Assembly (NCBI GenBank): GCA_024641285.1
Contig: JAHEDH010000010.1
Coordinates: forward strand, 1-43,266
DNA from: a bacterium
GTDB taxonomy: Bacteria > Actinomycetota > Acidimicrobiia > Spongiisociales > ZC4RG35
Reading direction: 5' to 3'
Length of the DNA stretch: 43,266 nt
Shown here: positions 25,317-27,042 of the stretch, piece by piece
How positions within the stretch are numbered: the first letter of the stretch is position 1
Layout of the letters: each line of letters begins with the position of its first letter
Made by a program: the position numbers and the translations under genes
Notes under the pieces: model-generated
Databases searched by the model: none
The model's input: the letters and a program-made list of their open reading frames with translations, nothing else
What the model was told of the DNA's origin: nothing

Positions 25317-25351
25317 GAACTGTCGACTGTGAACTGTCGACTGTGAACTAC
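25317..25351. repeat. Heptamer array D (units GAACTGT/CGACTGT), abutting the cwlM-like stop
   Basis: Five heptamers with GAACTGT and CGACTGT alternating; the last, GAACTAC, contains the stop codon of the convergent cwlM-like gene. It can pair with array C across ~131 nt. The remainder of the 200-bp gap shows nothing recognisable. Confidence 0.85.
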
Positions 25352-26298
25352 AGCGAAGAAAAGAAGTGGTCGATGCCGGCGACGGTCTTGCGGCCGAGCG
25401 TTTCGTCCAGGTCGTTGCGGGCGATGACGATGGCGGGGGAGCGGGTTTCGCGCAGCATCGCCGTCGCCCGGCCCTCCACGGTGCCTCCGATCTCGCGGGA
25501 GACCGCGCGCGCCAGGCGCTCACCGACCTCGCTACGACTACGGGGTGTCTCGAAGTAGAAGACCCGATCCTCATCCGACTGCTGGAACGAGACGATGAGG
25601 TCGGCCGCTCCACGATTCGCCCGGCCGGCCCGGACGCGCTCGGGCAGGTGCTCGTCTGCGCCGTGCGAGACCAGCGGCAGACCGCCCCGCTCCTGGAACT
25701 CGAGCGCAGCCGCGTTGGCTGCCACCCAGGCCTGTCGGGCCTCGTCGCTGGAGCGGGCGGCGGCGTCGAAGAACACCTTCGTCCCGACGATCGTCTTGTC
25801 CGAGGCGCGCAGCCATTCACGTTCCCGAATCGCCTCACGACCGGCGCGAATCGGCCCCCGCGTCACGAGTCGGAGCTCGGTGATCACCTCCGGCCCGGCG
25901 ATCCCGTCTTCGGTGAGGTTGCGATTGGCCTGGAATTCGTAGATCGCCCGCTGCGTGTCGGGCCCGTAGATCGAGTCCACTTTGCCGGCGTCGAAGCCGA
26001 GCCCGTTGAGGCGGCTCTGCAATTCGGCGACGTCCTCGCCACGGAGCATCGGCCGACGGAGATAGAGCAGTCGATCACCGAGGCGGTACCCCGCTTCGTA
26101 CAGCGCCCTCCAGGTGTCGGGCCCGATGATGCCGTCGGGGTTCAAACCCCGGGATCGTTGGAAGGACCGTGTCGATTCGGTGGTTGCCTGACCGAACTCA
26201 CCCCGGGCATCATCGGCCGGGTCGAACCCCAGCGCTGCCAGACGGTCCTGGATGTCACGCACAGCCTCCCCCGTCGACCCCGACCGATACAAACGCAT
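25348..26298 (-). CDS. CwlM-like peptidoglycan-binding protein with degenerate amidase domain
   Basis: 316 aa. Two PG_binding_1 domains (residues ~8-70, FQRSRGLNPDGIIGPDTWRAL; ~80-142, YEFQANRNLTEDGIAGPEV) precede an Amidase_3-like domain (~171-316). The zinc-binding positions look lost: the usual DAGHGG segment reads FFDAAARSS (176-184), and the later hydrophobic-SIHAD segment reads LIVSFQQSD (234-242). In Mycobacterium CwlM, encoded at the same place, regulates MurA without needing amidase activity, so a regulatory role is likely. There is no signal peptide, in keeping with a cytoplasmic protein. ATG 26298 has TACCAT 6 nt upstream and no Shine-Dalgarno. Confidence 0.88.
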   Translation of the reverse strand: MRLYRSGSTGEAVRDIQDRLAALGFDPADDARGEFGQATTESTRSFQRSRGLNPDGIIGPDTWRALYEAGYRLGDRLLYLRRPMLRGEDVAELQSRLNGLGFDAGKVDSIYGPDTQRAIYEFQANRNLTEDGIAGPEVITELRLVTRGPIRAGREAIREREWLRASDKTIVGTKVFFDAAARSSDEARQAWVAANAAALEFQERGGLPLVSHGADEHLPERVRAGRANRGAADLIVSFQQSDEDRVFYFETPRSRSEVGERLARAVSREIGGTVEGRATAMLRETRSPAIVIARNDLDETLGRKTVAGIDHFFSSL

Positions 26299-26304
26299 GA
26301 ACCG

Positions 26305-26310
26305 ATGGTA
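26305..26310 (-). promoter_or_regulatory. -10 box of the leaderless cwlM-like gene
   Basis: TACCAT on the minus strand, 6 nt before ATG 26298. Confidence 0.45.
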
Positions 26311-26321
26311 CGCCCTCGTGT

Positions 26322-26672
26322 GCGTGTCGACCTTGTCGCAACTGACGGCGTGTCCTCCGGCCTGGCGGCCGAAGCGTGTCGTGCTCGCTGGCGCTCGCAG
26401 CGTCTCTTCGCCTTCGGCGGCGCAGCCGCCGAACCGGCATCAGCGTGTCCGCTCGTTCGCTGCGCTCACATTGCAGCGTGTCGTCACTTCGTGAGCGTGT
26501 CTTCGCTTCGCGAGCGTGTCCGAGCCAGAAGCGCGCCGCTCACCTCAACGCTTCGGAGGTCCAGGTCGTCGATTCGGTGCAGACACGCCGCCGAAGGCGA
26601 TCACACGCTCCGGCGGAGGCCGCCAGGCCGGAAGCGGAACACACGCGGCGATGCGAAGCGAGGACGACACGC
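26322..26672. repeat. Inverted field of GCGTGTC heptamers and small hairpins
   Basis: The 420-bp gap between trxA and the cwlM-like gene has no supported gene. Seven exact GCGTGTC copies start at 26322, 26348, 26374, 26443, 26476, 26495 and 26514. The reverse orientation follows: exact GACACGC at 26582 and 26666, and one-mismatch CACACGC at 26602 and 26640. Several intervals fold into hairpins, for example TCAC-TTC-GTGA, TCGC-TTC-GCGA and a perfect 9-bp stem TTCGGCGGC/GCCGCCGAA. The last three forward copies have a 19-nt period. Confidence 0.8.
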
Positions 26673-26718
26673 TCGTGAGCGAGCCACCACGGCGCTCAAG
26701 CGAGCGCTCAGCGTTCGC

Positions 26719-27042
26719 TCACAGGAATTCGGCGAGTTCCTTTTCGAGCATGTGCTTGGGTTTGGCGCCGACGATGCGCTTCTTCTCGACGCCGTTCTGG
26801 AAAACGATCAGCGTCGGGATGCTCATCACGTCGAAGTTGGCGGGGATCTGCGGGTTCTCGTCGATGTTCAGCTTGCCGATCGTGATCTTGTCGGCATGCT
26901 CACCGGCGATCTCGTCGAGCACGGGTGCGACCATCTTGCAGGGGCCGCACCATTCTGCCCAGAAGTCGACGAGAACGGGGCGATCGCCCGAGATGGTGTC
27001 GTTGAACGAGGAGTCGTCCAGCGTGATCATGTTTTCAGCCAT
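26719..27042 (-). CDS. trxA: Thioredoxin
   Basis: 107 aa, a complete thioredoxin fold with the active site WAEWCGPCKM and the cis-Pro loop MSIPTLIVF. It reduces protein disulfides and is recycled by the thioredoxin reductase encoded immediately upstream. ATG 27042 follows GAAAGGA. Last gene of the GNAT-to-trxA operon. Confidence 0.96.
   Translation of the reverse strand: MAENMITLDDSSFNDTISGDRPVLVDFWAEWCGPCKMVAPVLDEIAGEHADKITIGKLNIDENPQIPANFDVMSIPTLIVFQNGVEKKRIVGAKPKHMLEKELAEFL

Follow-up and report, generated by a model that had tools for sequence, protein, structure and literature searches.

The trxA-cwlM gap holds a two-armed array of heptamers and hairpins

What occupies the gap between trxA and a cwlM-like gene in genome G000, where one heptamer recurs first in one orientation and then in the other, and what might such an arrangement do? 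The window (the whole 43,266-nt stretch of DNA that was analyzed) is contig C204 of this genome, a 3.4-Mb assembly in 224 contigs that is 89.5% complete. From ORF translations and gene order, which also supplied the gene names, the neighborhood (jag, rsmG, parA, parB, cwlM, trxA, trxB) appears to be of the actinobacterial oriC type. The gap measures 420 nt and runs from the start, at 26298, of the cwlM-like peptidoglycan-binding gene (25348-26298, minus strand; the name cwlM is inferred from gene order and sequence) to the stop, at 26719, of trxA (thioredoxin; 26719-27042, minus strand), the congener orthologs of the two genes being 94.6% and 97% identical, respectively. Neither the ORF list nor our gene model places a credible gene between 26298 and 26719, as originally predicted, and a coding explanation was set aside.

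All seven exact forward copies of GCGTGTC that had been noticed were located, starting at 26322, 26348, 26374, 26443, 26476, 26495, and 26514, with the last three exactly 19 nt apart, and a forward copy with one mismatch (GCGTCTC) starts at 26400. They are followed, again as claimed, by GACACGC-type copies, two of them exact (26582 and 26666) and two with one mismatch (CACACGC at 26602 and 26640). The heptamer is not in excess over the window as a whole, with GCGTGTC/GACACGC observed 16 times against 16.9 expected; nine of these 16 sites are packed into 351 nt (Poisson, ~2e-17). The small palindromes with TTC or TGG(C) loops reported between the heptamers are also present. The original prediction had placed the element at 26322-26672; the heptamer field does lie there, but the element does not end at 26672 and reaches ~26718 through an outer hairpin by the trxA stop. 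The field is part of a composite element that occupies the gap, a two-armed hairpin array at 26318-26718 (no strand assigned) bounded by the flanking ORFs and missing from the same gap in the congener.

The forward arm (26322-26520, plus strand) was delimited by the positions of the eight forward linkers listed above, GCGTCTC included. Its modules comprise a 19-nt hairpin, CTC-CGGCC-TGGC-GGCCG-AA, at 26355-26373 (loop cGCCAg on the opposite strand), which recurs in the arrays of contig C70; a second 19-nt module, GTGCTCGCTGGCGCTCGCA, at 26381-26399, with an identical copy in array C197a; a 36-nt module at 26407-26442 containing the perfect 9-bp hairpin TTCGGCGGC-GCA-GCCGCCGAA; module A (CGCTCGTTCGCTGCGCTCACATTGCA) at 26450-26475, which pairs in part with module A' of the other arm; and two 12-nt hairpins, GTCACTTCGTGA at 26483-26494 and TTCGCTTCGCGA at 26502-26513 (all plus strand). 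A central spacer at 26521-26581 (no strand assigned), which differs in most of the elements compared, leads to the reverse arm (26582-26672, minus strand), itself delimited by linkers at 26582, 26602, 26640, and 26666. This arm carries, on the minus strand, a 13-nt module with the hairpin CGCC-GAA-GGCG (26589-26601), a 31-nt nested hairpin, TCCGGC-GGA-GGCC-GCCA-GGCC-GGA-AGCGGAA (26609-26639), with relatives in seven other arrays of this genome and in the congener, and module A' (GGCGATGCGAAGCGAGGAC, 26647-26665). The outermost hairpin in the predicted folds (26673-26721, minus strand) overlaps the trxA stop codon; the 3' end of trxA abuts the array. On the far side of the array, a -10-like hexamer of the form TANNNT (TACCAT, 26305-26310, minus strand) stands 6 nt before the cwlM start codon, and the congener matches it in both hexamer and spacing. 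Across the family, 13 of 25 loci have a TANNNT motif 6-9 nt ahead of the cwlM start, and the hexamer suggests a candidate leaderless promoter beyond the array.

The array belongs to a dispersed family

The window array gave 32 similarity matches in G000, and a census based on pattern and similarity searches, the genome-wide search that had been proposed for GCGTGTC plus hairpin, recovered about 15 GCGTGTC arrays. They lie on contigs C31, C69 (two), C70 (three), C79, C90, C115, C125 (two), C164, C197 (two), and C204 (the window). We counted 74 inter-linker modules over 15 loci, and the arrays are all intergenic. Closely paired GCGTGT sites occur 68 times genome-wide, some of them plain GGCGTGT tandem repeats, against six for a control pattern read backward, and exact GCGTGTC pairs occur 15 times against none for the control. 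These controls rule out base composition, which had been named as the explanation that would undo the prediction, as the source of the motif density.

A third linker, a G run (GCNNNGGG / CCCNNNGC), marks related arrays on C104, C71, C157, and C206; the window array is therefore one among several tag classes in the genome. Linkers in the G-run arrays include GCTTGGG and GCTCTGGG in one orientation and CCCAAGC and CCCACAGC in the other, around hairpins GGCCTGGCGGCC, on C104 (12090-12260), C157, C206, C71, and C195; the C104 array holds four near-perfect 26-nt repeats. One array locus is represented at two contig ends, the start of C206 (1-330) and the end of C149, which differ by an indel (GCCATGACTCGG versus GCCATGGATCGTGACTCGG) that suggests within-array strain variation in the sampled population. 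Pure heptamer tandem repeats of the GGCGTGT, CGCTCCA, CCAATAG, GGAAGCA, and CCGATAG types stand in other gaps of G000, at sites that include C47 (4550-4770), C23, C224, C16, and C104, and repeats of this kind may have given rise to the linker heptamer.

Stems vary in compensated fashion while the loops are constrained

In the two-armed arrays, GCGTGTC-linked modules precede the spacer and GACACGC-linked modules follow it, and the opposite order never occurs. The usual order is module A (GCTCGCTCGCTGGCGCTCGCATTGC), hairpin, hairpin, spacer, hairpin, 31-nt nested hairpin with the core GGA-GGCC-GCCA-GGCC-GGA, and module A' (GCGATGCGAAGCGAGC). The window copy goes beyond this, with the additional 19-nt and 36-nt modules on its forward arm. 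The commonest module is 12 nt long, which gives the 19-nt step, and 19-nt modules give a step of 26 nt.

An ungapped alignment of 18 distinct 26-nt units shows that four stem pairs are paired in 72 of 72 cells, of which 31 are changed on both sides, a result matched by none of 500 shuffles; sliding the partners by one to three columns lowers pairing to 24-56%. The 12-nt modules aligned in this way contain seven different 4-bp stems, all of them 100% paired. Three of the four pairs vary, whereas the loop-closing pair is a constant C-G in all 13 distinct 12-nt modules. MAFFT set the outer stems of the 31-nt module out of register, and the pair statistics accordingly leave that module aside.

Along the GACACGC strand, 12 of the 13 distinct 12-nt modules have GAA, GCA, or GGA as their triloop and the remaining one has AAA; that is, a TNC loop sits within the fixed C-G pair, or cGNAg on the GACACGC strand, with this single exception. 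The polarity of the loop relative to the tag is identical in both arms (all but one of the 12-nt modules having a TNC loop), and the 9-bp hairpin of the module at 26407, with GCA on the plus strand, departs from it. The 19- and 31-nt modules carry a cGCCAg loop, and GCCA is not a GNRA RNA loop.

Predicted folds join the two arms

In predicted minimum-energy folds, pairing joins the linkers of the forward arm to those of the reverse arm and the hairpins protrude at the junctions, as is plain in the elements on C31 and C164. At least half of the forward-linker bases are paired to reverse-linker bases in 10 of 11 elements, and for nine of the 11 the fold beats every one of 50 dinucleotide shuffles (the exceptions are C70a and C70c). 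The window element gave z = -4.5 and -4.2 on its two strands. With pairing restricted to 40 nt, most arrays fold no better than shuffled sequence, which indicates that single 4-bp hairpins are weak alone. We therefore dropped the strength of individual hairpins as an argument, and the support for structure comes from stem compensation and arm pairing.

The arrays stand at gene ends

Genes were called with a home-made hexamer gene model trained on long ORFs. On these calls, 17 arrays of G000 occupy 12 tandem gaps, five convergent gaps, and no divergent gap. Divergent gaps make up ~22% of sampled gaps of at least 60 nt against 0 of 17 here (P ~0.015, a value that depends on just 17 elements and on home-made gene calls). 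The nearest stop codon is within 30 nt in 15 of the 17, most arrays starting 0-30 nt past a stop, and the window array starts at the trxA stop itself with hairpins within ~80 nt of the stop codon, the distance expected of clustered-hairpin terminators. The calls for the congener G001 are less clean than those for G000; two of its arrays were called divergent, one of them owing to a missed short upstream gene. This placement agrees with that published for REPs, which occupy tandem or convergent gaps, in many cases <20 bp from a 3' end (PMC3733652), and with hairpin-cluster terminators (PMC8355165). The arrays contain no U tract, and hairpin clusters terminate without one (PMC8355165).

Sister species share the layout and exchange the linkers

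Genome G001 has the same layout with the linkers GCNNGATG / CATCNNGC, at loci that match those of MAG Ww501 (JAHEIN01), and its hairpins are again mostly of the cGNAg type (GTGC-TTC-GCAC; GGCC-GGA-GGCC). Two arrays in G000 itself, on C208 and C139, have linkers of this GCNNGATG/CATCNNGC type. At one orthologous locus, from the end of a gene encoding ...VDQFE...GF to a TetR-like gene, both species hold the layout and a 25-nt module A block (GCTCGCTCGCTGGCGCTCGCATTGC) that is identical between them, while the linkers differ. The next gap, from the TetR-like to a ppk-like gene, contains an array in G000 versus a plain GCCGCCAGG/CCTGGCGGC hairpin in G001. In the trxA-cwlM gap of G001, trxA is followed by a 17-bp hairpin instead of an array; in most other relatives, this gap is 31-203 nt long, with a plain terminator-like hairpin in two of those inspected. 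Together, presence and absence and the plain hairpins of relatives indicate that the arrays come and go, occupying terminator positions.

Searches of the family genomes found no comparable element outside the genus, with one 25-nt match in G044, and a scan of the genome collection for the GTGTC array gave no match. A second scan, with the shared 31-nt module, returned only MAG Ww501, the congener. No array match was found in the plasmid and phage collections. The 17-mer TCACTTCGTGAGCGTGT occurs as a single exact copy in each of nine viral contigs, mostly in a conserved CCCAC..TATACACTCACTTCGTGAGCGTGTGGG context; these matches were rejected as arrays, being lone hairpins in unrelated contexts. 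In G012, which belongs to another genus of the family, the trxA-cwlM gap (1807-2105, 299 nt) contains different repeats, of the CGCTCGAACAGACGC and GGTCGGTCGAC types, and other family members may hold repeat types of their own in this gap.

A probable transcript-end structure and its alternatives

On balance, we favor a REP/BIME-like composite palindromic mosaic at gene ends that probably acts as a two-way transcript-end structure, a reading drawn from placement, the compensated stems, and the replacement of plain hairpins by arrays. The unit is a short hairpin followed by GC and a tag (here GTGTC). Units are set head to tail in one arm and inverted in the other, around a spacer, and the arrays presumably spread to many gene ends through copying or recombination of tagged units. 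As RNA polymerase passes the trxA stop, the transcript would fold into a series of small hairpins, followed by a long stem that joins the GCGTGTC linkers of one arm to the GACACGC linkers of the other and leaves the hairpins projecting at the junctions. Transcription probably runs through the array, where this structure would end the transcript or protect its 3' end and so separate trxA from cwlM, and cwlM would apparently have its own start point just past the array. Because the element is symmetric, it could serve both strands, in agreement with its occurrence between convergent gene pairs. The earlier suggestion of an expressed structured RNA fits the compensated stems and the proximity to stop codons, with expression taken as likely. 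The suggestion of a REP-like element fits as well: the units are dispersed, intergenic, and polar, each a tag plus a hairpin near stop codons. Their tag matches neither GTAG nor CGTC, and no RAYT was found.

Another explanation, which we consider unlikely, is that the arrays act as single-stranded DNA, the GACACGC-hairpin units being copied or moved by an enzyme, as is thought for TnpA-REP with GTAG repeats, and gene ends being no more than tolerated insertion sites. The loop types leave room for such a role, since cGNAg and cGNNAg form unusually stable DNA minihairpin loops and, on the tag strand, C-G closes both the GNA triloops and the GCCA tetraloop. Tag and loop polarity hold in both arms of all arrays, the stems are free to vary but the loop and its closing pair are not, and array presence differs between two close species. 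Against this, variable stems are unexpected if one unit were simply copied, and neither a target duplication nor a clean insertion site was seen in the two orthologous gaps compared (trxA-cwlM and TetR-ppk). The linked TnpA-REP that the original prediction had pointed to was also looked for: a search for the Y1 (PF01797) REP-associated transposase drew no match from G000 (89.5% complete) and none from the 34 family genomes, whereas 5 of 14 control genomes matched. The different tag and the lack of a transposase match place the arrays outside the GTAG/RAYT class. A more speculative proposal, to which we give a similarly small chance, is that an actinobacterial lineage without RAYTs carries arrays of tagged hairpins that form a superfamily of their own, new to science, in which an activity on single-stranded cGNAg/cGNNAg hairpins would copy units and sometimes swap the whole linker set. 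If so, sister species would be sharing layout and locus with linkers that differ yet remain complementary between the arms.

A mutational origin appears still less probable. Here terminator hairpins would be the sites at which replication slippage and hairpin-templated template switching produced palindromes and iterated linkers, the original terminator alone having a function, and hairpin-templated mutation, rather than selection, could be the source of the perfect stems. The many heptamer tandem repeats in other gaps (C47, C23, C224, C16, and C104) are consistent with such a process, as is the presence, in one orthologous gap of the congener, of the module sequence GGCCGCCAGGCC as a plain terminator-like hairpin. 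However, one order of parts (A, hairpin, hairpin, spacer, hairpin, 31-nt module, A') is shared by unlinked loci and by both species, a pattern that local growth would not yield.

We give very little credence to the idea, also in the original prediction, of a protein-binding array, in which the heptamer would be the site of a nucleoid protein, gyrase, or regulator and the hairpins would be spacers. A constant heptamer at regular 19- and 26-nt steps is what such an array would have, but nothing more specific speaks for it; the congener, like two arrays of G000, has GCNNGATG in place of the whole heptamer set, which argues against one conserved site, and the spacing of binding sites does not need spacers with compensated pairing. 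A retron is unsupported, the only Rfam match being a sub-threshold snoRNA outside the array, and a CRISPR was rejected because the repeats are 7 nt and the segments between them are recurring palindromes of 12-36 nt.

Comparison with known repeat systems

REP-type repeats are best studied in proteobacteria, the GTAG class is tied to one transposase, and our literature search found none described for this lineage. Like REPs and BIMEs, the arrays consist of short extragenic hairpins in many copies with a polar tag at one end, form inverted clusters with the tags toward a variable spacer, and lie in tandem or convergent gaps near stop codons. They differ in having GTGTC, GATG, or a G run as the tag in place of the known GTAG or CGTC, units homogeneous in tag and variable in stem, a tag set that is exchanged between sister species, and no RAYT in the family genomes. 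RAYT-mobilized REPINs similarly place two inverted palindromic units about a spacer, but the arrays are longer, with several units per arm, and the Y1 transposase was not found. It is the exchange of the tag set between close relatives, together with the failure to find a known mobilizing enzyme, that sets the arrays apart from known bacterial palindromic repeats.

Clustered-hairpin intrinsic terminators also have several hairpins just past stop codons and do not require a U tract (PMC8355165), whereas the hairpins of the arrays belong to tagged modules that are repeated and dispersed, the two arms pair, and the size is far above that of an ordinary two-hairpin cluster. MITEs are dispersed, non-coding inverted-repeat elements of 200-400 bp as well, but neither constant terminal inverted repeats nor a target duplication nor a parent transposon was seen for the arrays; A and A' are imperfectly inverted, the ends vary between copies, and array-free orthologous gaps align uncleanly. 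Heptameric short tandem repeats share a seven-base unit repeated in gaps; in the arrays, by contrast, hairpins of 12, 19, or more nt separate the heptamers, whose orientation is reversed in the second arm.

Gene-end repeats of this kind, with another tag, free yet compensated stems, and no such transposase, offer a clean case for asking what maintains and homogenizes them, and the lineage also poses the question of whether gene ends are the function of such repeats or a mere refuge. The exchange of a linker set at one locus between sister species is a natural compensatory experiment on arm pairing.
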